A DNA stretch of 50,701 nt from Verrucomicrobiaceae bacterium (lineage in GTDB: Bacteria; Verrucomicrobiota; Verrucomicrobiia; Chthoniobacterales; JAATET01). Within the stretch, counting starts at the first letter, position 1. Each line of letters opens with the position of its first letter. The notes beneath the pieces were generated by a model that saw only the letters and a program-made list of their open reading frames with translations, searched no databases and was not told the DNA's origin. The translations under genes and the position numbers were made by a program. Location: NCBI GenBank assembly GCA_027488755.1, contig JAIYAZ010000153.1, positions 1 through 50,701 on the forward strand. The letters are read 5' to 3'. Shown here one piece after another: positions 1-13,179 of the stretch.

Positions 1-330
1 CGCGCCATCGAATCCAAGGTCAAGGCCGAGCAGGACGCCATGCGCGCCAAGAACGAGAAGCTCATGCGCGTCACCCAGGCCGAAGCCAGCGCCGCCGAGC
101 GCCAGCTCGCCGCCGACGCCCAGGCCTACACCACCGAGGTGGAATCCAAAGCCCGCGCCGACGCCATTCGCCGCGAAGCCGAGGCCCTGCGCTCCAGCCC
201 CGAGATCATCCAGCTCCGCAGCGTGGAGAAATGGGACGGCGTCCTGCCCCGCATCCAGGGCAACAGCCCCATCCCCTTCCTCAACGTCGGCGGCTTCGCC
301 GAGCCCACACCGACTCCCGCTCCGAACTAA
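1..330 (+). CDS. SPFH/band-7 (prohibitin-like) protein, 3' part only
   Basis: The frame is open from the first base of the window, so the start and the SPFH domain itself lie upstream. The visible 109 residues are an Ala/Glu/Lys/Arg-rich helical stretch (about residues 1-65), then a segment with EIIQLRSVEKWDG and GVLPRIQG, and a Pro/Thr tail. Known of the family: prohibitin-type proteins end in a long coiled coil followed by a 'KWDGKLP' motif and form membrane-associated rings. The resemblance to that ending is good, but the diagnostic domain is not in view. Its stop overlaps by four bases the stop of the convergent sigma-factor gene, so no terminator separates them. Confidence 0.7.
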   Translation, partial: RAIESKVKAEQDAMRAKNEKLMRVTQAEASAAERQLAADAQAYTTEVESKARADAIRREAEALRSSPEIIQLRSVEKWDGVLPRIQGNSPIPFLNVGGFAEPTPTPAPN

Positions 331-1916
331 CGCCCCTTCGGACCACATTTGGCCAGTCGGTGGAGCAGTAATCCGAAGATCACGCAGAGGAACACCGAGA
401 CCCAACCCGCGTAGTCCGGCACCTGGCGCGCGAAGTCGAGGAGCGCGTCGTTGGCAAACAGCGCCCGCGCGGCTGCGTCATTGGCATGCGGCGCGGTGGC
501 GTGCCCACCCAGCGCGAAATGATGCGCCGCCGCGCGCCCGCCATACGCCGCCCACCACGCCAGCGCCAGCCCGCCCGACGCCACGTAGCCCAGGGCAACG
601 CCCCCGAACGCGAGGCCACCGATCGCGGCCCCGCCAAACGCCACCAGCCCCACCGCCAATCCGCCAATCGGGAACACCCCGACCGCCAGCCCCCCGAGCG
701 CAACCCCGCCCATCGCCACGCCGCCCACCGCCAGGAACGGGCTCACCGCGACATCCCCCAAGGCCAGCCAGCCTAGCGCCACCCTCCGCCCGACCCGCGC
801 CGGCGACCCCACGCTCACATGCACGAGCGGCAGCCCGAGAAACTCCGCGCGGCTCCGATGCTCGAAATGCCATTCGCCCGTGGGATTTGCCTCCGGGTCG
901 AGACCGCGCCGGATGCGTTCCTCGCGCTGGATTCGTCGCAGCTCCTTCCGGTTCCACATTGCCCCCCCGATCATCGCCGCCTGGAAAACGACGATGCTCG
1001 CGACGACCCCGGCCGCCCACCAGCCCGGATGCGAACGCGCGAACGCCCCCGAAGTCGCCCACAAACCGCCCAGCGCCAGCAGAAATCCCAGCAAAATGCC
1101 GGCGATCCAGCGCATCGAGTGGCGCAAAAACTCGCGCTCCCGCTCGGACTCCGCCGCTCGCATCGCCATGCCGAAGCCCAGCCGTGCCCCCATCCAACCG
1201 AGCCCGAGCCCGCCCAACGCCCCGGCCACACTGGCGAAGAATCCCACCCCCGCCGCGCCGGATCCCTTTGCAATCGCCGCCCCCATCGTTGCGGCCTGCG
1301 CCGTATGCGTGAAGGCGGGGATCGCCGCCAGCACCCCGACCGCGAAAGCCCGCCCCGGCGCCGACCGCACGAGCGCGCCCTCCACCCTCGCCTGCACCGC
1401 TTCCCGCAGCATGCCGCGCCCGCGGGACAACCGCTGCCGCACCACCTCCTCGCTCAGCTCCAGGGCCGCCGCCACCTCGCGCACCGAGCGATCCTTGCGG
1501 TAAAACAGCACCAGCGGCTCCCGGTAGCGCTCGGGCATTCGTTCGAGCGACGCCCACACGAGCGCTTCCGCCTCCCGCGCATCGACGATTTCCCCCGGGC
1601 CGGGCGCGTCGTCCGTCACCTCCTCCGGGAGCCCCTCGAAACGCGCCGCCGTGCGGTGGAACCGCGCCGCGAGATGCCGCACCGTCCCGCACAGCCAGGC
1701 CCGGAAATTCCGGGGCGGCTCCACGGCGAGTTGTTTCCATGCCGCCAGGAAGGCCTCCTGCGCGATCTCCTCCGAGGCCGCGAACGAGCCCGTGCGGGCA
1801 TAAGCCACCGCGCAGGCCATGGATTGATGTTCCGCCACGAGGCTCGCAAATGCCGCGCGATCGCCCCGCCGTGCCGCACCGATCAACCGGGTTTCTTCGA
1901 TTTCATTCATCGACAT
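327..1916 (-). CDS. ECF-type sigma factor fused to a C-terminal membrane and AxGGx-repeat domain
   Basis: Residues about 10-90 look like sigma-70 region 2 (EEIAQEAFLAAWKQL, FRAWLCGTVRHLA) and about 115-175 like region 4 (LERMPERYREPLVLFY, then a helix-turn-helix ending VRQRLSRGRGMLREAV). The protein continues to 529 residues, against about 180-200 for a plain ECF factor. Residues 190-330 hold several hydrophobic helices. Residues 396-455 are about twelve consecutive five-residue units of the form A-x-G-G-[VL]. A last membrane helix lies near 505-520. No anti-sigma gene is adjacent, so the membrane part may hold the factor in check; this is inference. The start could also be two codons downstream (Met3); neither has a ribosome-binding site. 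Confidence 0.85.
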   Translation of the reverse strand: MSMNEIEETRLIGAARRGDRAAFASLVAEHQSMACAVAYARTGSFAASEEIAQEAFLAAWKQLAVEPPRNFRAWLCGTVRHLAARFHRTAARFEGLPEEVTDDAPGPGEIVDAREAEALVWASLERMPERYREPLVLFYRKDRSVREVAAALELSEEVVRQRLSRGRGMLREAVQARVEGALVRSAPGRAFAVGVLAAIPAFTHTAQAATMGAAIAKGSGAAGVGFFASVAGALGGLGLGWMGARLGFGMAMRAAESEREREFLRHSMRWIAGILLGFLLALGGLWATSGAFARSHPGWWAAGVVASIVVFQAAMIGGAMWNRKELRRIQREERIRRGLDPEANPTGEWHFEHRSRAEFLGLPLVHVSVGSPARVGRRVALGWLALGDVAVSPFLAVGGVAMGGVALGGLAVGVFPIGGLAVGLVAFGGAAIGGLAFGGVALGYVASGGLALAWWAAYGGRAAAHHFALGGHATAPHANDAAARALFANDALLDFARQVPDYAGWVSVFLCVIFGLLLHRLAKCGPKGR

Positions 1917-1982
1917 CCAGTGCCACGTCGCCGGGAAAGGTGACGCCCTTTTGCTGCTCCGGAAAAGAATTCCTGCGTTCGC

Positions 1983-2971: not shown

Positions 2972-4147
2972 ATGTCCCGCCGTTACATTTTTTCGTCCGA
3001 GTCCGTTGGTGAAGGCCACCCCGACAAGGTTGCCGATACGATTTCTGATGCCGTGCTCGACGCCTGCCTCGCGCAGGACCGCCGGAGCCGCGTCGCCTGC
3101 GAGACCTACGTGAAGAGCAACATCGCCATCGTCGGCGGCGAGATCACCACGAAGGCGAAACTCGACTACGTCCAGATCGTCCGCGACGCCGTGCGCGAGA
3201 TCGGCTACGTGAACGACGACGACGTCTTCCACGCCGACAAAATCTTCGTCCAGAACATCCTCACCGCCCAGTCGCCCGACATCGCCCAGGGCGTGGACGC
3301 CAAAAAGGCCAAGGGCAAAAAGACCGCCGAGCAGGGTGCCGGCGACCAGGGCATCATGTTCGGCTACGCCAGCAACGAGACGCCCGAGCTCATGCCCGCG
3401 CCGATCATGTTCGCCCACCGCCTCGGCCGGAAGCTCACCGAGATCCGCAAGGCCGGCCGCGCCGCGAAGTGGCTCCGCCCGGACGCGAAATCCCAGGTTT
3501 CCGTGGAATACGTCGACGGCAAGCCCACCCGCATCACGAACGTCGTCATCTCCACCCAGCATGCCGCGGACGCCGAGCACGCCGAGATCGAGAAATTCTG
3601 CATCGAGAAGGTCATCAAAGCCGTTCTTCCCAAGGCCATGCTCACGAAGGACACCGAGTTCCTCATCAACCCCACCGGCAAATTCGTCATCGGCGGCCCG
3701 CAGGGCGACACCGGCCTCACCGGCCGCAAAATCATCGTCGACACCTACGGCGGCATGGGCCGCCACGGCGGCGGCGCCTTCTCCGGCAAGGACCCGAGCA
3801 AGGTCGACCGCAGCGCCGCCTACATGGGCCGCTGGGTCGCCAAAAACATCGTCGCCGCCGGCCTCGCCGCCCGCGCCGAGGTCCAGTTCGCCTACGCCAT
3901 CGGCCACCCGCAGCCCGTGAGCGTGCACATTGACACCTTTGGCACCGGCACCGTGGCGGACGACGCCATCCTCGACGCCGTCTTGAAGACCTTCAGCTTC
4001 AAGCCCGCCGACATCGTCGCCCAGCTCGACCTCCTCCGCCCGATCTACGCCAAAACCACGAACTACGGCCACTTCGGCAAGGAAGACCCCGACCTCACCT
4101 GGGAAACCACCAACAAAGCCGCCGCCCTGAAAAAAGCCGTCAAATAG
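2972..4147 (+). CDS. metK: S-adenosylmethionine synthetase
   Basis: Makes S-adenosylmethionine from methionine and ATP. The N-terminus carries [13 protein letters not shown], followed by the ATP-binding [12 protein letters not shown] motif, the P-loop-like [19 protein letters not shown], and the usual C-terminal tail with HFG and DLTWE. At 391 residues it is normal length. It is the first gene of the metK-ahcY pair, divergent from sahR. The start is the ATG directly before [10 protein letters not shown]; the leader is C-rich and has no Shine-Dalgarno sequence. There is no room upstream for a SAM or SAH riboswitch, which fits control by a protein repressor. Confidence 0.97.
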
Positions 4148-4198: not shown

Positions 4199-5632
4199 AT
4201 GAGCACTGCCACCACCCCGACTCCCGCCGTCGACTACAAGGTCGCCGACATCTCGCTGGCCGAGTTTGGCCGCAAGGAAATCCAGATCGCCGAGCACGAA
4301 ATGCCGGGCCTCATGGCGACCCGCCGCAAATACGCCGCTCAAAAGCCGCTCGCCGGCGTCCGCATCATGGGCAGCCTGCACATGACCATCCAGACCGCCG
4401 TCCTCATCGAGACCCTCGTCGACCTCGGCGCGAACGTCCGCTGGTGCTCGTGCAACATCTTCTCGACCCAGGACCACGCCGCCGCCGCGATCGCCGCCGC
4501 CGGCATTCCCGTCTTCGCCTGGAAGGGCGAGACCCTTGAGGAATACTGGGACTGCACCATCAAGGCCCTCACCTGGCCCGACGGCTCCGGCCCCGAGCTC
4601 ATCGTCGACGACGGCGGCGACGCCACCCTCCTCATCCACAAGGGCGCCGACCTCGAAGAAGGCGACGCCAGCTGGGTGAACGCGCCCGCCGGCTCCTTCG
4701 AAGAGGGCGTCATCAAAGCCCTCCTCAAAAAGGTCAACGCCGAGGACCCCCTCAAGTGGACCACCTACCTCAAGGCCTGGAAGGGCGTCTCCGAGGAGAC
4801 CACCACCGGCGTCCACCGCCTCTACGAGATGCACCAGGCCGGCAAGCTCCGCGTCCCCGCCATCAACGTCAACGACTCCGTCACCAAGTCCAAGTTCGAC
4901 AACCTCTACGGCTGCCGCGAATCCCTCGTCGACGGCATCAAGCGCGCCACCGACGTGATGATCTCCGGCAAAGTCGGCGTCGTCTGCGGCTACGGCGACG
5001 TCGGCAAAGGCTGCGCCCAGGCCCTCCGCGCGCAGGGTGCGCAGGTCGTCGTCACGGAAATCGACCCCATCTGCGCCCTCCAGGCCGCCATGGAAGGCTT
5101 CCGCGTCCTCACCATCGAGGACACCCTCGGCTGGGGCGACATCTACGTCACCACCACCGGCAACAAGGACATCATCCGCCTCGAGCACCTCACCAAAATG
5201 AAGGACCAGGCGATCGTCTGTAACATCGGCCACTTCGACAACGAGATCCAGGTCGACGCGCTCAACAACTACGCCGGCGCGAAGAAGCTCGAAATCAAGC
5301 CCCAGGTCGACCAATACACCTTCGAAGACGGCCGCCAGCTCTACATGCTCGCCGAAGGCCGCCTCGTGAACCTCGGCTGCGCCACCGGCCACCCGAGCTT
5401 CGTCATGAGCAACAGCTTCACGAACCAGACGCTCGCCCAGATCGATCTCTGGAAAAACCGCGAGACGAACAAGCCCGGCGTCACCGTCCTCAGCAAGCAG
5501 CTCGACGAGGAAGTCGCCCGCCTCCACCTCGAGAAAATCGGCGCCAAGCTCACGAAGCTCACGCCCGCCCAGGCCGACTACATCGGCGTCAAGGTCGAAG
5601 GCCCCTACAAGCCCGAGACCTACCGCTACTAA
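4199..5632 (+). CDS. ahcY: Adenosylhomocysteinase (S-adenosylhomocysteine hydrolase)
   Basis: Hydrolyses S-adenosylhomocysteine to adenosine and homocysteine, removing the product of methyltransferases. Visible family signatures are [15 protein letters not shown] near the N-terminus, the NAD-binding [13 protein letters not shown] (around 262-274), and the C-terminal KPETYRY ending. At 477 residues it belongs to the longer class with an extra internal segment. It lies 51 bases after metK with no promoter-like sequence obvious between them, so co-transcription is likely, with control by SahR inferred. A strong terminator follows. Confidence 0.97.
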
Positions 5633-5702: not shown

Positions 5703-5780
5703 TCTTTGCCCGCTCGCCTCCCGCCCCCGCCGCGCGCTTGATCCCGCCGCGGCCGTGCCGGAGCATGTCCCCACCACCGC

Positions 5781-6194
5781 ATGGACCCCACCACCCTCGG
5801 CCTCCCGCATCGGCCGCCCTTCCTCTTCCTCGACGCCGTCACCGACCTCGAGCCCGGCACCTCCGCCCGCGCCACGAAAACCTTCGACCCCGCCGACCCC
5901 GTCTTCGCCGGCCACTTCCCCGGCGCACCCATCGTCCCCGGCGTGCTCCTCACCGAAGCCCTCGCCCAACTCGCCGGCATCGCCGTCGCCGAGCCCGGCG
6001 CCCGCTACCTCCTCTCCGCCGTCCGGCTCATGAAATTCCCCCGCGCCGCCCGCCCCGGGGAACTCCTCCTCCTCACCGCCACCGTCCAATCCCGCCTCGG
6101 CCCGCTCCGTCAATGCGCCGTCCACGCCACCGTCGGCTCCGAGACCGTCGCCACCGGCGAGATCGTCCTCAGCGAATGGACCGCCCCCGCCTGA
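5781..6194 (+). CDS. FabZ-like 3-hydroxyacyl-ACP dehydratase (hotdog fold)
   Basis: Expected to dehydrate 3-hydroxyacyl-carrier-protein intermediates, putting double bonds into the growing chain. The FabZ signatures are present: LPHRPPFLFLD (8-18), GHFPGAPIVPGVLLTEALAQLAG split across 44-66, with catalytic His45 and Glu59. Length (137) is normal for FabZ. It opens a long co-directional set of acyl-chain genes and differs from a housekeeping FabZ, which would usually sit with lpx or fab genes. This matches the dehydratases of aryl-polyene clusters. The start precedes DPTTLGLPHRPPF and has no Shine-Dalgarno sequence. Confidence 0.9.
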   Translation: MDPTTLGLPHRPPFLFLDAVTDLEPGTSARATKTFDPADPVFAGHFPGAPIVPGVLLTEALAQLAGIAVAEPGARYLLSAVRLMKFPRAARPGELLLLTATVQSRLGPLRQCAVHATVGSETVATGEIVLSEWTAPA

Positions 6195-6225
6195 CCGCCC
6201 ACAGGCGTCTCGCCAGCGCGCGAGC

Positions 6226-6243
6226 CTTCGTCTAAGAACGAAG
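6226..6243. other. Small intercistronic stem-loop
   Basis: CTTCGT (6226-6231) and ACGAAG (6238-6243) can pair around a six-base loop, within the 57-base gap between the dehydratase and acyltransferase genes. It has no T-run, so it is not a typical terminator; it might affect mRNA processing. Weak evidence. Confidence 0.3.
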
Positions 6244-6251
6244 CCTCCCGC

Positions 6252-6995
6252 ATGACTTCCGCCCTCCGGCGTCTCCTCTTCTGGCTCGGCTACCTTTACG
6301 GAGCCCTCGCCGTCGTCGTCTGCGCGACCTTGGGCGCCGCCCTGCTTCTCATTCCCTGCTCCGCCCGCTGGCGGCAACGCACCACCACCCGCGTGATCGC
6401 CGCCATCTCCCGCGCCTTCATCGTCACCATGCACCGCGCCGGGGTTTTTCAGTTCGACCTCCGCGGCCTGCAGGCCCTCCGCCCCCGCCGCGGCGTCATC
6501 TTCGCCGCCAACCACCCCACCTTCCTCGACGCGCTCCTCCTCTTCGGCGTGCTCCCCGGCGTCTTCTGCGTCACCAAGGCCAGCCTGCTGCGCCACCCGC
6601 TGCTTATCCCCATCCTCCGCGCCGCCGGTTACCTCGAGGTCGAACAACCCCGCCGCCTCATGCGCTCCTGCGCCGACCGCCTCCGCGCCGGGGACAACCT
6701 CCTCGTCTTCCCCGAAGGCACCCGCTCGCCCCAACGCGGCCTCCACCCCTTCAAGCCCGGCTTCGCCCACGTCGCCCTCCACGCCCCCGCCCCCGTCATC
6801 ACCCTCCACGTCGCCGGCCCGCCCGGCGACTTCCTCCGCAAAGGCACCGCCTTCTTCCGCCCCTGGCAGCCCCTCCCCATTCGCTACGTCTTCCGCGCCG
6901 GCGCGGAATTCCCCCCCCGCGAGGGCGACTCCACCAAAACCTTCCTCACCCGCGTCGAAGCCGCCTTCCACCCCGCCGTCGCGGCCACCCCATGA
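6252..6995 (+). CDS. PlsC-type 1-acyl-glycerol-3-phosphate (lysophospholipid) acyltransferase
   Basis: Transfers an acyl chain from a thioester donor to a glycerolipid or similar alcohol. The N-terminus has one or two membrane helices (about 7-35). The catalytic HX4D motif is NHPTFLD with His88 and Asp93, and the second motif is FPEGTRS (153-159). At 247 residues it is of PlsC size. Aryl-polyene clusters carry a PlsC-like acyltransferase thought to help attach the polyene to a lipid, and the same role is inferred here. It overlaps the next gene by four bases (ATGA), indicating translational coupling. Confidence 0.9.
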   Translation: MTSALRRLLFWLGYLYGALAVVVCATLGAALLLIPCSARWRQRTTTRVIAAISRAFIVTMHRAGVFQFDLRGLQALRPRRGVIFAANHPTFLDALLLFGVLPGVFCVTKASLLRHPLLIPILRAAGYLEVEQPRRLMRSCADRLRAGDNLLVFPEGTRSPQRGLHPFKPGFAHVALHAPAPVITLHVAGPPGDFLRKGTAFFRPWQPLPIRYVFRAGAEFPPREGDSTKTFLTRVEAAFHPAVAATP

Positions 6996-7768
6996 GCCCC
7001 GCGCCCCTCCTTCGCGCCGGCCTCCTCGCCACCGCCGGCCTCGGCGCCGGTCTCCTCCTCGGCGGCCGCCCACGCTCCGGACTCCTCGCCCTCGCCGCCG
7101 CCCACGCCACCTTCTGCGCCACCGCCGCCGCGCCAAACCACGCCCTCACCGGCCCGCTCATCCGCCGCTTCACCCCCCGCGACCGCGAACTCTGGCTCAC
7201 CCTCGACGACGGCCCCGACCCCGCCGCCACCCCCGCCATCCTCGACGTGCTGGAGCGCCACCGCGCCCGCGCCACCTTCCTCCTCATCGGCAAACGCGCC
7301 GCCCGCCACCCCGACCTCGTCCGCGCCATCACCGCTGCCGGTCACGAGATCGGCAACCACTCGCACACCCACCCCGCCGCCACGTTCTGGACCGCCGGCC
7401 CCGCCCGCCTCGCCCGCGAAATCGACGACGCCCAGCGCGCCATTCACGCCGCCGCCGGTATCACCCCCGCGTTCTTCCGCCCCCCCGTCGGCATGGCCAA
7501 CCTCTTCCTCGACCCGCTCCTCCGCGCCCGCGGTCTCCGCCGCCTCGGCTGGTCCGTCCGCGCCTTCGACACCCGACCGCAGGACCCCGCCGCCCTGCTC
7601 GACCGCCTCACCGCCGCCTGCTACCCCGGCGCCATTGTCCTCCTCCACGAACGCGGCGCCACCGCCGGCACCGCCATCCTCGACGCCTTCCTCACCCGCC
7701 TCCGCCGCGCGGAATTCCGCGTCACCCTTCCCGCCGAAGCCCAACTCCTCGTCGATTCCCTCGCATGA
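6992..7768 (+). CDS. Polysaccharide deacetylase (NodB homology) family protein
   Basis: Metal-dependent N- or O-deacetylase fold (carbohydrate esterase 4). After a hydrophobic N-terminal segment (about 8-45, likely a membrane anchor) come motif 1 TLDDGPD (70-76), motif 2 NHSHTH (122-127) with the two metal His, and motif 3 FRPPVG. All metal and base residues appear intact. The start overlaps the acyltransferase stop and the stop overlaps the ketosynthase start, so it belongs firmly to this operon. Its substrate is unknown; trimming an acetyl group from a sugar-lipid head group is one possibility, purely inferred. Confidence 0.88.
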   Translation: MSPAPLLRAGLLATAGLGAGLLLGGRPRSGLLALAAAHATFCATAAAPNHALTGPLIRRFTPRDRELWLTLDDGPDPAATPAILDVLERHRARATFLLIGKRAARHPDLVRAITAAGHEIGNHSHTHPAATFWTAGPARLAREIDDAQRAIHAAAGITPAFFRPPVGMANLFLDPLLRARGLRRLGWSVRAFDTRPQDPAALLDRLTAACYPGAIVLLHERGATAGTAILDAFLTRLRRAEFRVTLPAEAQLLVDSLA

Positions 7769-8925
7769 ACGTCGTTATCACCGGACTCGGCCTTGTCTCG
7801 CCGCTTGCCACCGGCGTGGACGCCACCTGGTCCCGCCTCGTCGCCGGTGAGCACGGCCTCCGCCCCCTCACCGTCTTCGACCCCGCCGGCTACCGCTGCC
7901 ACCGCGCCGGGGAAATTCCCCTCACCCCCGCCCCGCGCGACCGCGCCCCCCGCGCCAGCCACTTCCTCCTCGCCGCCGCCTGCGAAGCCCTCGCCCAGGC
8001 CCGCCTGCAGCCCTTCGACGGCCTCCCGCTCTGCCTCAGCACCACCGCCGGCGGCATGGAATTCGGCGAAGACTTCCTCCGCGGCTTCCTCGAAAACCGC
8101 CGCCCCGCCCTCGCCAAAATCGCCCGCTACCACCCCCGCCAGCAACTCCTCGACCTCGAACGCACCCTCCGCTTCCGCGCCGGCCCCGCCCACCTCATTT
8201 CCAACTCCTGCGCCAGCGGCGCCAACGCCCTCGGCCACGCCCTCGATCTCCTCCACACCGGCCAGGCCGAAATCCTCCTCGCCGGCGGATACGAAGCCCT
8301 CAACGAACTCGTCTTCGCCGGCTTCGACTGCCTCAAGGCCGTCACCGACGAGGACATCCGCCCCTTCGACGTCCATCGCTCCGGCCTCCTCCTCGGCGAA
8401 GGCGCCGCCGTCCTCGTGCTCGAAACCGCCACCCACGCCGCCCGCCGCGGGGCCGCCCCCCTCGTCACCCTCGCCGGCTACGGCCACGCCACCGACACCC
8501 ACCACATCACCCAGCCCGCCCCCGCCGGCGAAGCCCTCGCCCGCTCCCTCCGCGCCGCCTGCACCCGCGCCGGCCTCGCCCCCGCCGCCATCGATTATGT
8601 CAACGCCCACGGCACCGGCACCCCCGCCAACGACCCCGCCGAACTCGCCGGCTACCACGCCGTCTTCGGCCCCGACCTCCCCCTCATCCGCTCCACCAAA
8701 GGCGCCACCGGCCACACCCTCGGCGCCGCCGGAGCCATCGAGGCCGTCCTCGCCGTCCAAACCCTCCGCACCGGCGCCGTCCCGCCCCAGCTCGGTCTCC
8801 GCGAACCCATCCCCGGCATGGAAACCGCCCTCCGCGCCGCGCCCGCCCGGCCGCCCCGCGTCGTCGCCAGCACCAACCTCGGCTTCGGCGGCTCCAACGC
8901 CGCCCTCGTTTTCACCGCGCAATGA
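7765..8925 (+). CDS. Beta-ketoacyl-ACP synthase (FabF-like, catalytic)
   Basis: Catalyses decarboxylative condensation of malonyl-ACP with an acyl starter. The full thiolase-fold triad is visible: Cys149 in SNSCASGANALGHA, His282 in NAHGTGTPAND, and His317 in STKGATGHTLGAAGA. The C-terminus has the usual NLGFGGSNAALVF. Length 386 is slightly short of typical FabF. It overlaps the deacetylase upstream and the ketosynthase-like gene downstream by four bases each. The adjacent inactive-looking partner suggests a KS/chain-length-factor heterodimer as in type II polyketide and aryl-polyene systems. Confidence 0.93.
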   Translation: MNVVITGLGLVSPLATGVDATWSRLVAGEHGLRPLTVFDPAGYRCHRAGEIPLTPAPRDRAPRASHFLLAAACEALAQARLQPFDGLPLCLSTTAGGMEFGEDFLRGFLENRRPALAKIARYHPRQQLLDLERTLRFRAGPAHLISNSCASGANALGHALDLLHTGQAEILLAGGYEALNELVFAGFDCLKAVTDEDIRPFDVHRSGLLLGEGAAVLVLETATHAARRGAAPLVTLAGYGHATDTHHITQPAPAGEALARSLRAACTRAGLAPAAIDYVNAHGTGTPANDPAELAGYHAVFGPDLPLIRSTKGATGHTLGAAGAIEAVLAVQTLRTGAVPPQLGLREPIPGMETALRAAPARPPRVVASTNLGFGGSNAALVFTAQ

Positions 8926-9836
8926 CGCCGCTCGCCCTCCTCGCCGCCGGCTCCGTGCCCGCCACCGTCGCCGCCGCCCTCCCCCGCCTCCGCCCCGACG
9001 CCGCCCCCTTCGCGGTCCGCCGCGTGGCCCCCGAAGCCACCCAACGCTGGCAGCGCGAACCCCGCCTCCGCCGCGCCAGCCCCATCGCCCACTTCCTCGC
9101 CGAAGCCTGCACCCAGGCCGTGGAGGCCGCCCCCGTCCCGCGCGAACGCCTCGGCCTCGTCGTCGCCTACTTCACCGGCCCGAGCCAGTATTCCCGCGCC
9201 TTCTTCCAGCCCGTGCTCGAACGCGGCCCCACCGCCGCCAGCCCCGCGTATTTCCCCGACACCGTCTACAACGCCAGCCTCAGCCACGTCGCCAGCGTCC
9301 TCGGTCTCAATGGGCCCGCCTACGCCCTCGTCGGCGACGAAGCCGCCTTCGTCTCCGCCCTCACCGTCGCCCGGACCTGGCTCACCCTCGGCACCGCCGA
9401 CCACGTCCTCGTCGCCGGCGCCGAGGAACTCGACGCCATCGCCCTCGAAGCCTACGCCGCCGCCGGCTGGCTCCGCCGCGGCTTCCTCCCCGCCGAAGGC
9501 GCCGCCGCCCTCCTCGTCGGCCGCGAACCGGACGCCGCGATCCAAATCACCGACCTCGTGGAAGGCCCCACCCACCGCACCCCCGCCGAAGCCCGCGCCG
9601 CCCACGCCGCCGTCGCCACGACCTTTGGCTCCGAGCCCGTCTTCCCGCCCGACCCCGCGACCACCCCCCGCGCCTTCACCGCCAGCGCCGGCTGGTGCAT
9701 CCAGGCCGCCGCCCGCCAGCTCGCCGCCGACTCCGCCCTCTGGGTCCCCCTCCCCGGCCACGACCACGGCTCCGCCGCCCTCCGGCTTTGTTCCCGCTCA
9801 CGCCGGGTGAACGTTGAATCCGATAACCAGACCTGA
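8922..9836 (+). CDS. Ketosynthase-like protein without active Cys (chain-length-factor-like)
   Basis: It resembles the N-terminal half of ketosynthases: SLSHVASVLGLNGPAYAL (119-136), then VGDEAAF where the neighbouring enzyme has its active Cys. Aligning GPAYALVGDEAAF with GPAHLISNSCASG puts Glu140 at the Cys position; classical chain length factors have Gln there. The later His motifs are absent, and at 304 residues it is shorter than a full KS, as in the 'beta-ketoacyl synthase-like, N-terminal' proteins of aryl-polyene loci. From about 9787 codon choice changes, so the last roughly 17 residues (after GSAALRL) may be encoded by inserted DNA. The original stop may have been lost. Confidence 0.8.
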   Translation: MTPLALLAAGSVPATVAAALPRLRPDAAPFAVRRVAPEATQRWQREPRLRRASPIAHFLAEACTQAVEAAPVPRERLGLVVAYFTGPSQYSRAFFQPVLERGPTAASPAYFPDTVYNASLSHVASVLGLNGPAYALVGDEAAFVSALTVARTWLTLGTADHVLVAGAEELDAIALEAYAAAGWLRRGFLPAEGAAALLVGREPDAAIQITDLVEGPTHRTPAEARAAHAAVATTFGSEPVFPPDPATTPRAFTASAGWCIQAAARQLAADSALWVPLPGHDHGSAALRLCSRSRRVNVESDNQT

Positions 9837-9856
9837 CGGGTAGAGCGAAATCCCCC

Positions 9857-11548
9857 ATGAAAAACATCCCCTTTCTCGCCGGCTTAAGCGCCGTGCTGGG
9901 AGCCGCCGTTCTCATGAACCTGCAAGCCGCCTCCCCGCCCGATAAACCCGACTTCCGCCACTGGGGAGATCAGGGCGACGGCACCTTTCGAAACCCCATC
10001 CTCCCCGGCGACTTTTCCGACCCCGACGTCATCCGCGTGGGCGGTGATTATTATCTCATCACCTCAACGTTCCAGTTTTCGCCCGGCATGGCGGTGCTGC
10101 ATTCCAAGGATCTGGTGAATTGGAGGTATCTCAGTCACTGCTTTTCCGATCTCACCCAACTGGGACCGGAGCTCAACTGGGATCGCATGAACCGCTACAA
10201 CCGCGGCGTCTACGCGGGCTCGCTGCGTTACCACGACGGCAAATTTTGGATGTTCACCACCACGCTGGACGAAGGGGTTTTCATGACCACCGCGACCAGG
10301 CCCGAAGGCCCCTGGGCACCGCCGCTCAAAATCTGGGACCGAAAGGGCGTGGATGATAACTGCCCATTCTGGGACGACGACGGCCAGGCCTACATGCTTT
10401 TCTCCACGCCCGGGAACAAGTGGTATACCCGCATCGTCAAAATGTCGCCCGATGGGACAAGCGTTGATCCCTCCACCGAACGCGTCATCGATGCCCACCA
10501 GACGAGCGAGGGAAACAAAATCTACAAGCTCAACGGTTACTATTACATCTTCCACAACCAGTGCGAATTCGCCGGTCCGAATGATCAAAACACCGAGCGC
10601 ATCGGGGTCTTCATGCGGTCCCGGAACATTTGGGGACCCTACGAGAAACGCGTGGCTCTCCGCGGGCGCCGCCAGCCCGACCTGGACGGCGAGCCGAATC
10701 AGGGAGGTTTGGTTCAGACCGAGGCGGGTGATTGGTGGTTCATTACGCATCAAGGCCGCGGCTCCATCCACGGCCGCGCCTGCTCGCTTCTGCCCGTCAA
10801 GTGGGTCGATGGTTGGCCGGTGCTGGGCGAGCCGGACGCCCTCGCCATCGGCACCATCCCCTGGAGCGGGAAAAAACCGGTGGACGGATTCCCCGCCCAC
10901 GCGCCGCAGGCCTCGGATGACTTCTCCTCCGCCACGCTGGGCCCCCAGTGGGAATGGAACTACCAGCCCCGCGCGGACATGTGGTCGCTCACGGAACGTC
11001 CCGGCTCCCTGCGTTTGCGCGCCTTCAAGCCGCTGCATCGACCGCTCTCACCCGACCCGGGAGCTAAACCGGTTCCCCCCGGCGTGCTGCTTAACGCCGG
11101 AAACACGCTGACCCAGCGCCTCATGACCCCGGCGGGGGGAACCGCCACGGCCCGGCTTGATCTCACGAATCTCGCCGATGGACAGACCGCCGGCTTCGGA
11201 CTCTTCTCCAAGGAATACGGCGTGCTCGGCGTCCACCAAACGCAGGGCGTCCGTCGGTTGGTTTACCTCACCAACGACACCGCGCAACAAGGCCCGGTGT
11301 TAACGCAGAATTCCATCTGGCTTCGGGCCATCATCGACGACAAGGCCACATCCACCTTTGCCTACAGTCTCGACGGAGAACACTTCACTCCCTTCGGAGA
11401 ACCCTACGCCTTGAAATGGGCATGGTATCGCGGCATCCGCCTCGCGTTGTTCTCCTATAACGAAACCGCCGAAGCCGGTTTTGTGGATATCGATTCGTTC
11501 GAATACACCTTCCCGGGCCCGCCTCCCTTTCCCGGGCGTCATCGGTAA
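9857..11548 (+). CDS. Glycoside hydrolase family 43 protein (beta-xylosidase/arabinofuranosidase type), exported
   Basis: A signal peptide of about 25 residues (MKNIPFLAGLSAVLGAAVL, cleaved near LQAAS) precedes a GH43 five-bladed propeller. Candidate catalytic residues are general base Asp55 in FSDPDVI, the modulator in VDDNCPFWDDDG (Asp166/167) and acid Glu218 in TSEGNKIYK. From about residue 350 there is a beta-sandwich domain of the type common in GH43 proteins (DDFSSATLGPQWEWN). It sits between the KS-like gene and the carrier protein but uses many A/T-ending codons (gat, ggt, tcg), unlike its neighbours. It therefore looks inserted into the cluster, with a glycan-degrading rather than biosynthetic role. 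Confidence 0.92.
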   Translation: MKNIPFLAGLSAVLGAAVLMNLQAASPPDKPDFRHWGDQGDGTFRNPILPGDFSDPDVIRVGGDYYLITSTFQFSPGMAVLHSKDLVNWRYLSHCFSDLTQLGPELNWDRMNRYNRGVYAGSLRYHDGKFWMFTTTLDEGVFMTTATRPEGPWAPPLKIWDRKGVDDNCPFWDDDGQAYMLFSTPGNKWYTRIVKMSPDGTSVDPSTERVIDAHQTSEGNKIYKLNGYYYIFHNQCEFAGPNDQNTERIGVFMRSRNIWGPYEKRVALRGRRQPDLDGEPNQGGLVQTEAGDWWFITHQGRGSIHGRACSLLPVKWVDGWPVLGEPDALAIGTIPWSGKKPVDGFPAHAPQASDDFSSATLGPQWEWNYQPRADMWSLTERPGSLRLRAFKPLHRPLSPDPGAKPVPPGVLLNAGNTLTQRLMTPAGGTATARLDLTNLADGQTAGFGLFSKEYGVLGVHQTQGVRRLVYLTNDTAQQGPVLTQNSIWLRAIIDDKATSTFAYSLDGEHFTPFGEPYALKWAWYRGIRLALFSYNETAEAGFVDIDSFEYTFPGPPPFPGRHR

Positions 11549-11639
11549 ACGAAGGTCCCACAACGCCGCCCGCAGCTTGCCCGCAGGAACGCAGGATTGC
11601 CGCCCCCGCCATGGCCGGGTTAATTCCCATGGCGCAGCC

Positions 11640-11912
11640 ATGACCGTTGACCTCGCCGAACTCAAAAACCTCCTCATCGAAAACTGCATGCTGCGGCTTT
11701 CCCCCGAGGAAATCGCCGAGGACACCCCGCTCTTCTCGCCCGAAGGCCTCGGCCTCGACTCCATCGACGCCCTCCAGCTCGCCGTCGCCGTCGAAAAAAC
11801 CTACGGCGTCGCCATCAAGGACTCCTCCGTCGCCCGCGAAGCCCTCCACAGCCTCGCCTCCCTCCGCGACTGGATCACCCGCCAAAAAAATGAACCCGCC
11901 GGACAAGGCTGA
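11640..11912 (+). CDS. Acyl carrier protein (cluster ACP 1)
   Basis: Small acidic carrier of 90 residues with the phosphopantetheine site LGLDSIDALQL (Ser41). The start is the ATG before TVDLAELKNLLIEN; an upstream open frame runs into the GH43 segment and is not plausible. The last codons overlap the start of the following flavoprotein by 23 bases. Two carriers in one cluster are typical of aryl-polyene and flexirubin loci, one often dedicated to the starter. Which one that is cannot be told here. Confidence 0.9.
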   Translation: MTVDLAELKNLLIENCMLRLSPEEIAEDTPLFSPEGLGLDSIDALQLAVAVEKTYGVAIKDSSVAREALHSLASLRDWITRQKNEPAGQG

Positions 11913-13179
11913 CGTCGTCATCGCCGGTGGCGGCCCCGCCGGTTCCGCCGCCGCGATCACGCTCGCCCGCGCCGGCCGCCGCGTCCTCCTCCTCGAACGC
12001 GACGCCCACCCCCGCTTCCGCATCGGCGAATCCCTCCTCCCCTACGGCAACGACCTCCTCCGCGAGCTCGGCGTCTGGGACGACCTCGTCGCCGACGGCC
12101 GCTTCATGGAAAAACGCGGCGCCGAATTCGGCACCGCCGACGGCGCGCACTTCCAGCGCTTCTCCTTCGCCCAGGGCCTCGGCCCCGCCCACGCCTTCAC
12201 CTTCCAGGTCGAACGCTCCCGCTTCGACGCCCTCCTCTTCGCCCGCGCCGCCACCGCCGGCGCCACCACCCGCGAGCACGCCGCCGTCACCAGCCTCGCC
12301 CCCGACGCCCACGGCGTCACCGTCACCTACACCCACGCCGGCACCCCGCACACCGTCCGCGCCCGCCACTTCCTCGACGCCACCGGCCGCGACGCCGTCT
12401 CCGGCCGCCTCCTCCACCTCCCGAAAATCGCCACCCAACCCGCCCGCCGCCTCGCCACCTACGCCCACTTCCACGGCGTCACCCGCAACGACGGCGACGC
12501 CGCCGGCAACATCACCATCCTCCGCGCCCCCGGCGGCTGGTTCTGGCTCATCCCCCTCGACGCCGAAAAAACCTCCGTCGGCTACGTCCGCCTCCTCGCC
12601 GACCTCAAGGAAAACGGCCTCTCCCCCGACGCCGACTTCGACCGCGCCCTCGCCGCCTTCCCCGCGCTCCGCGACCGCCTCGCCACCGCCCACCGAGTCG
12701 CCCCCGCCCACTCCACCGGCGACTACAGCTACCGCTTCCGCTCCTTCGCCCCCCACCCCCGCATCCTCCTCACCGGCGACGCCGCCGGCTTCGTCGACCC
12801 CATCTTTTCCTCCGGCGTTTTGCTCGCCCTCAAATCCGCGCACCGCGCCGCCCGCCTCCTCCTCCGCCACGACGAACGCCCCCTCGGCCCGCTCACCCGC
12901 GCCCGCTACACCGCCGACGTCCGCCGCATGATGAATCTCTACCGCGGCATCATCCGCGCCTTCTACGACGCCCCCTCCTTCGAGCTCTTCATGCACCCCG
13001 AGCCCCCGTGGGACGTCCGCCGCGCCGTCCTCGCCCTCGTCGGCGGCCGCACCGAACTCCCCCTCCCCCTCCGCTGCCGGCTGCACGCCTTCCACCTCTG
13101 CCGCCACCTCCAGCGCTGGCTCCCCCTCGCCCCGCGCATCCCCTCCCTCACCGCATGCCCGCCGCCCACGCAGGCCTGA
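11890..13179 (+). CDS. FAD-dependent oxidoreductase, halogenase-like (flavoprotein 1)
   Basis: The Rossmann FAD motif VVIAGGGPAGSAAA (9-22) is followed by RIGESLLP and RFMEKRGAEF, in which Lys75 aligns with the catalytic Lys of flavin-dependent halogenases. GWFWLIP (216-222) fits the WxWxIP signature that separates halogenases from monooxygenases. A second FAD motif is LLTGDAAGFVDPIFSSG. Halogenases of this group often act on aromatic rings held on carrier proteins, and ACP 1 is encoded immediately upstream with overlap. The start is the ATG before NPPDKADVVIAGG. Geranylgeranyl-reductase-like or hydroxylase activity cannot be excluded from sequence alone. Confidence 0.8.
   Translation: MNPPDKADVVIAGGGPAGSAAAITLARAGRRVLLLERDAHPRFRIGESLLPYGNDLLRELGVWDDLVADGRFMEKRGAEFGTADGAHFQRFSFAQGLGPAHAFTFQVERSRFDALLFARAATAGATTREHAAVTSLAPDAHGVTVTYTHAGTPHTVRARHFLDATGRDAVSGRLLHLPKIATQPARRLATYAHFHGVTRNDGDAAGNITILRAPGGWFWLIPLDAEKTSVGYVRLLADLKENGLSPDADFDRALAAFPALRDRLATAHRVAPAHSTGDYSYRFRSFAPHPRILLTGDAAGFVDPIFSSGVLLALKSAHRAARLLLRHDERPLGPLTRARYTADVRRMMNLYRGIIRAFYDAPSFELFMHPEPPWDVRRAVLALVGGRTELPLPLRCRLHAFHLCRHLQRWLPLAPRIPSLTACPPPTQA

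Follow-up and report, generated by a model that had tools for sequence, protein, structure and literature searches.

The window, by which we mean the whole stretch of 50,701 nucleotides analysed here, carries a gene that joins in one 529-aa polypeptide an intact ECF sigma factor, transmembrane (TM) helices and a C-terminal repeat domain that has no match in Pfam or NCBIfam. This sigma factor is a novel variant of the ECFs with fused regulators. As the best explanation, to which we assign a probability of roughly 0.4, we propose a membrane-tethered, self-contained ECF sigma factor, in which a TM hairpin, a membrane-crossing beta-roll and a final TM helix would hold the protein at the membrane until a change in the bilayer, or a membrane partner, frees or exposes sigma. 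The features of the gene are the following:

327..1916, minus strand: whole gene for the 529-aa sigma / TM / repeat-domain protein, stop codon included (ORF list and translation)
1365..1916, minus strand: ECF sigma domain, residues 1-184, with region 2 at 26-92 and region 4 at 120-168 (Pfam, TIGR02937, fold match to SigW / sigmaE)
951..1259, minus strand: three hydrophobic helical segments, residues 220-322 (hydropathy, AF2, flanking charges)
447..875, minus strand: unnamed cap and predicted beta-roll domain, residues 348-490 (profile match 447-872, family alignment, AF2 beta 351-474)
552..731, minus strand: A-x-G-G-x repeats, residues 396-455, six decapeptides (periodicity, family pentad counts)
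357..422, minus strand: C-terminal TM helix, residues 499-520, with a positively charged tail behind it (hydropathy, flanking charges)
1919..1944, minus strand: promoter-like motif GTCACC-N15-GCACT, directly 5' of the ATG (found in 22 of 24 sigma-fusion genes)

An ECF sigma factor and its fused domain

The ORF runs from the ATG at 1916 to the stop at 327-329. Regions 2 and 4 of its sigma domain gave matches above cut-off in Pfam (Sigma70_r2, E 8e-12; Sigma70_r4_2, E 2e-10), region 3 had no match in Pfam or NCBIfam, and TIGR02937 was matched with E 3e-22. With the fold match to SigW / sigmaE, the identity of the protein as an intact ECF sigma factor is solid. A translation artefact of a GC-rich frame was ruled out, the sigma domain being in frame and relatives being found in many genera.

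Regarding known systems, the protein resembles ECF48/52/53 (e.g. SCO4117) and IutY of ECF243, in which an ECF sigma and a C-terminal extension with TM helices also form one polypeptide (PMC8999054). Unlike those, it has no zinc anti-sigma motif or known extracytoplasmic domain, and carries the unnamed hydrophobic repeat instead; the motif HxxxCxxC was absent from all 14 sigma fusions examined. ECF41 sigma factors also lack a separate anti-sigma, have a regulatory C-terminal extension and use the promoter TGTCACA-n16-CGTC (PMC3426412). The -35 and the spacing of the motif upstream of our gene agree with that promoter, but the -10 is (G/C)CAC and not CGTC, and ECF41 proteins carry a soluble domain as their fused extension. 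In the window protein, no SnoaL-like or SigJ-type extension was matched in Pfam, and the NCBIfam SigJ/SigX4 models were far below cut-off.

The initial annotation was right about the repeat, which belongs to a larger domain that also has a conserved cap. Domain profiles gave 105 matches in Verrucomicrobiota, Planctomycetota and Bacillota at E 1e-10, a set from which unrelated low-complexity ORFs with weak E-values (e.g. L060-L063, L101-L112) had been left out early; as at least one low-complexity sequence (L081) still passes, the count of 105 is slightly too high. By genomes, matches were found in 41 of the 387 from the window's phylum and in 36 of the 392 from a planctomycete's phylum (both E≤1e-10), as well as, at the looser cut-off of E≤0.001 and with some low-complexity hits included, in 13 of the 199 from the phylum to which an Oscillospiraceae bacterium belongs. 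No relative was found in the PDB sequence search or in the plasmid search. The domain is built in a constant way, in which a polar cap (EYRSR...GLPLVHI...G...ARGIIAIGD) comes first and is followed by A-Φ-G-x-Φ pentads and an aromatic/polar end.

The fusion partners of the 105 matches are ECF sigma factors (24), Ser/Thr kinases (23) and zinc ribbons (14), and the other 44 include XRE-HTH fusions, HAAS fusions and standalone forms. The repeat is found on other sigma factors too and is conserved in homologues, and the order sigma-TM-cap-repeat-TM is conserved in the 24 sigma proteins, which occur in the window's genus and in families f4 and f17 among others, with one in the planctomycete genome set (L179). 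We also noted DUF4019 as a standalone protein with a signal or lipoprotein signal sequence (L134, L135, L138-L140), and as a C-terminal domain on Ser/Thr kinases, some of them carrying the repeat domain and others not (L011, L012, L137).

One could argue that the C-terminal half is a mere anchor and that regulated proteolysis, in the linker or within the membrane, is what switches sigma on, with no sensing through the roll. There are precedents in IutY (ECF243), which is cut by Prc and RseP, and in what is predicted for the ECF48/52/53 group (PMC8999054); here, the linker at residues 202-225 is low-confidence in the AF2 model of the window protein and could be cut. The domain is nevertheless conserved and reused with other effectors beyond the need of a mere anchor, so we regard this alternative as rather unlikely; it also overlaps our best explanation and does not exclude it.

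Period and predicted fold of the repeat stretch

Residues 396-455 read AVGGV AMGGV ALGGL AVGVF PIGGL AVGLV AFGGA AIGGL AFGGV ALGYV ASGGL ALAWW. The period of five claimed for this stretch was borne out: lag-5 identity over residues 381-480 was 0.36, whereas 20,000 shuffles averaged 0.15 and peaked at 0.28; in the best 60-residue window (start 392) it reached 0.45, versus at most 0.29 in 500 shuffles of the whole protein. A chance low-complexity run was ruled out by these shuffles and by the conservation in relatives.

The period-5 signal is real, but the five-residue unit first described is not the true one. Across the family, pentad position 4 is small or polar in odd units (207 vs 24 hydrophobic) and hydrophobic (V/L/I) in even units (164 vs 52 small or polar), with a Fisher p of 3e-48 for the alternation, all of these counts coming from related sequences. 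This alternation makes the real repeat unit a decapeptide. Position 1 is A or S in an unforced family count; in the charge count by pentad position it was fixed by construction, so its charge-free state there is no evidence. Positions 2 and 5 are V/I/L/F, with charges tolerated mainly close to both ends. From this pattern, we infer that the small residues (A/S) point inward in the roll and the large hydrophobic ones outward. In a short zinc-ribbon branch (L056-L059, L100), Gln occupies position 4 of every second pentad (IGQF..ISQF..LSQF), possibly forming a Gln ladder.

The AF2 model of the window protein shows the sigma helices, helices at 221-337, β structure at 351-474 (pLDDT mostly about 90) and a last helix. 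For a standalone relative, it gave continuous β at 37-124 with a pLDDT of 94, the five models ranging from 82 to 94. The repeat stretch is therefore predicted as a continuous β-solenoid and not as ordinary TM helices, in agreement with the repeat fold that had been proposed for it. For perfect repeats, AF2 is documented to produce spurious beta-solenoids at high confidence, with outward hydrophobic stacks as a warning sign (PMC11795689); the repeats in this family are natural and imperfect, and the five AF2 models agree.

That documented bias is one of the reasons to consider that the solenoid is a repeat artefact and that the stretch is made of Gly/Ala-rich TM alpha-helices, odd in number and probably three, as would suit its mean Kyte-Doolittle value of 1.3-2.1 throughout. 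Against such helices stand the 28% Gly, the lack of any loop or polar break over about 70 residues, the strict 5/10-residue phase, which makes no sense on a 3.6-residue helix, and run lengths that change by whole pentads within the family. We consider them improbable.

Within the solenoid prediction, the search for a known fold gave no convincing counterpart. Foldseek against the PDB found no convincing fold match, with TM-scores of about 0.2 for YadA heads. A viral-model match in Foldseek (E 9e-4) was distrusted for its TM-score of 0.19 and 3% identity. In VIA-align, YadA-head β-rolls ranked first (BoaA, Z 9.5, rmsd 8.5 Å over 109), and the CbpF and EibD alignments spanned about 1.37 residues per model residue. 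A YadA-head roll has about 14 residues per coil, and the ratio of 1.37 is consistent with about 10 here, the putative coil length. The likeness to the rolls of BoaA, CbpF and EibD thus lies in the best structural alignments and in coils rich in A-x-G, but the rmsd is 6-9 Å and YadA-head proteins are soluble, trimeric surface adhesins.

Pentapeptide-repeat proteins, such as those of the MfpA type and the mycobacterial MPTR, share with this domain the period-5 sequence repeat and a predicted beta-solenoid, and differ from it in the 10-residue unit, the hydrophobic outside and the membrane context. The window protein and ten relatives gave no match to Pfam pentapeptide profiles at E up to 1, and the right-handed quadrilateral helix of that family (20 residues per coil) was missing from the fold matches, an absence that, like the weakness of the YadA matches, we do not count as proof. 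Of the suggested likeness to pentapeptide repeats, the period of five stood, while the profiles did not match and the weak fold matches were to YadA-type beta-rolls.

Charge distribution and the membrane

The core free of D/E/K/R has a median length of 67 residues, which at 10 residues per 4.8 Å coil would give about 33 Å. Charged residues make up about 30% just before the roll and about 1% in its middle, and rise again at its end, where W/Y are enriched. At the TM helix that follows the roll, the C-terminal flank was the more positive one in 21 of 22 sigma proteins, 11 of 12 kinases and 9 of 9 others, that is in 41 of the 43 untied cases (1 kinase and 3 others were tied). By the positive-inside rule, this places the end of the roll outside, and the repeat stretch would then cross; apart from L030, the kinase fusions have no TM-like segment between kinase and roll. 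An odd number of alpha-helices would fit the flanking charges equally well. In four kinases (L010, L012, L038 and L095), the number of TM helices from the roll to an exported-type domain is even, which agrees with crossing, while two (L011 and L015) disagree with it: their DUF4019, which is exported when it occurs as a protein by itself, is preceded by one TM. In the sigma proteins, the crossing model needs the first hydrophobic segment to be assumed non-crossing; in the window protein, the charges suggest that residues 220-241 do not cross and that 268-290 and 298-322 form a TM hairpin. Taken together, the charge pattern and the length favour a crossing of the membrane by the repeat stretch, with these two kinases speaking against it.

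The initial annotation had placed a solenoid in or on the membrane; the composition fits a membrane-facing solenoid, and the protein also has ordinary TM helices. Going one step further, the domain could be a transmembrane beta-solenoid, packed by Ala/Gly, with large hydrophobic residues towards the lipid and about seven coils matching the bilayer, and serve as a general membrane-state sensor for sigma factors, kinases and transcription factors. This we put forward tentatively, at somewhat less than even odds. We know of no example of such a membrane-protein architecture, and a literature search on transmembrane beta-solenoid wording found no paper.

The roll could also be real and not cross, lying on the cytosolic face or packed through its hydrophobic faces into an oligomer, as a Toastrack-like platform below the membrane. 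Toastrack (the DUF4097 group), a beta-helix, has been proposed to act in the cytosol as a signalling platform close to the membrane; it, too, occurs joined to HAAS and has links to transcription regulators, and HAAS joined to pentapeptide repeats was noted in the same study (PMC11237479). Many family members without a TM helix speak for this alternative, and the topology of L011 and L015 fits it better. However, judged by the charges on either side of the next TM helix, the roll ends outside in nearly all proteins, and its outward positions are hydrophobic all through the middle, turning polar just near the ends. Unlike the present domain, Toastrack is recognised by Pfam and is not a hydrophobic decapeptide repeat, and its Pfam profiles had no match in any scanned protein. 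We find a non-crossing roll unlikely.

In the membrane-tethered reading, the sigma domain would lie in the cytosol, held at the membrane by the TM hairpin, the roll and the last TM helix, and the beta-roll, with about ten residues per coil, would span the inner membrane with polar residues just near both ends. A bilayer change, or a membrane partner felt via the roll, would release or unmask the sigma domain, through either a conformational change or proteolysis. The direct membrane sensing by the repeat domain that had been suggested earlier may, we infer, take this form. The freed sigma would transcribe its own gene from a GTCACC-N15/16-(G/C)CAC promoter; in relatives, the targets of such promoters would also include an exported S41 peptidase gene and genes encoding exported CIA30-like proteins and small proteins with two TM helices.

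Promoter motif, neighbouring genes and implications

GTCAC(C/A)-N15/16-(G/C/A)CAC was found close 5' of the sigma domain in 22 of the 24 sigma-fusion genes, compared with a mean of 0.8 and a maximum of 4 in shuffles. Such a conserved motif implies autoregulation, and these genes are apparently autoregulated through GTCACC-N15/16-(G/C)CAC. In the window, it lies so near the ATG that the transcript may be leaderless, and it is equally close to the ATG in the genus mate G001. At several of the sites L186, L193, L198, L200 and L206, the -10 element seems extended (GGCACT, then GTG 5 to 7 bases on).

Outside sigma genes, matches to the strict pattern were about as frequent as in the control; in the window's own organism, one strict pattern matched at the sigma gene itself and at five further sites, roughly as many as in the control. 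The putative regulon hence rests on recurring kinds of gene. In three genomes, the motif precedes exported CIA30-like proteins (Pfam CIA30, E 5e-11 to 5e-13; L193:908-1501, L202:832-1455 and L206:859-1497, 39-46% identical); in two genomes it stands before small two-TM proteins that resemble each other, and in a relative before an exported S41 peptidase. To our knowledge, the exported CIA30-like domain has no known bacterial role. The recurrence of these genes behind the motif suggests an envelope regulon of these sigma factors.

The genes around the sigma gene in the window are these:

1-330, plus strand: final part of an ORF that is truncated at the contig start
1986-2912, minus strand: ArsR-HTH/SAM-methyltransferase, on the sigma gene's strand and ending 66 bases ahead of it
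2972-4147 and 4199-5632, plus strand: metK and ahcY look-alikes (S-adenosylmethionine cycle), facing the ArsR-HTH/methyltransferase gene
5755-13179, plus strand: dehydratase-, acyltransferase-, polysaccharide deacetylase-, ketosynthase-, acyl carrier protein- and FAD oxidoreductase-like genes (ORF list only)

No anti-sigma gene adjoins the sigma gene of the window, whose upstream neighbour is the ArsR-HTH/methyltransferase gene and whose other side holds only the cut ORF, and none was found among the scanned neighbours of five relatives. The coupling to an ECF sigma without an anti-sigma gene, stated in the initial annotation, therefore held next to the sigma genes checked. The homologue of the 1-330 ORF in G001 is a complete gene that adjoins the sigma gene and reads like an SPFH/band-7 membrane protein. 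The gene neighbourhood is not conserved beyond close relatives. The ArsR-HTH/methyltransferase gene opposite the metK/ahcY look-alikes is an arrangement repeated in G001, and the run at 5755-13179 resembles an aryl-polyene or fatty-acid-like cluster.

The conserved and apparently autoregulated promoter is a ready-made read-out, so that sensing by the module may be tested with one reporter. If the crossing β-roll holds true, the domain would be categorically new, and a new way to build an inner-membrane protein would stand beside helix bundles. Even without membrane crossing, the domain represents an unnamed signalling module, present in three phyla and joined to partners of at least five kinds.
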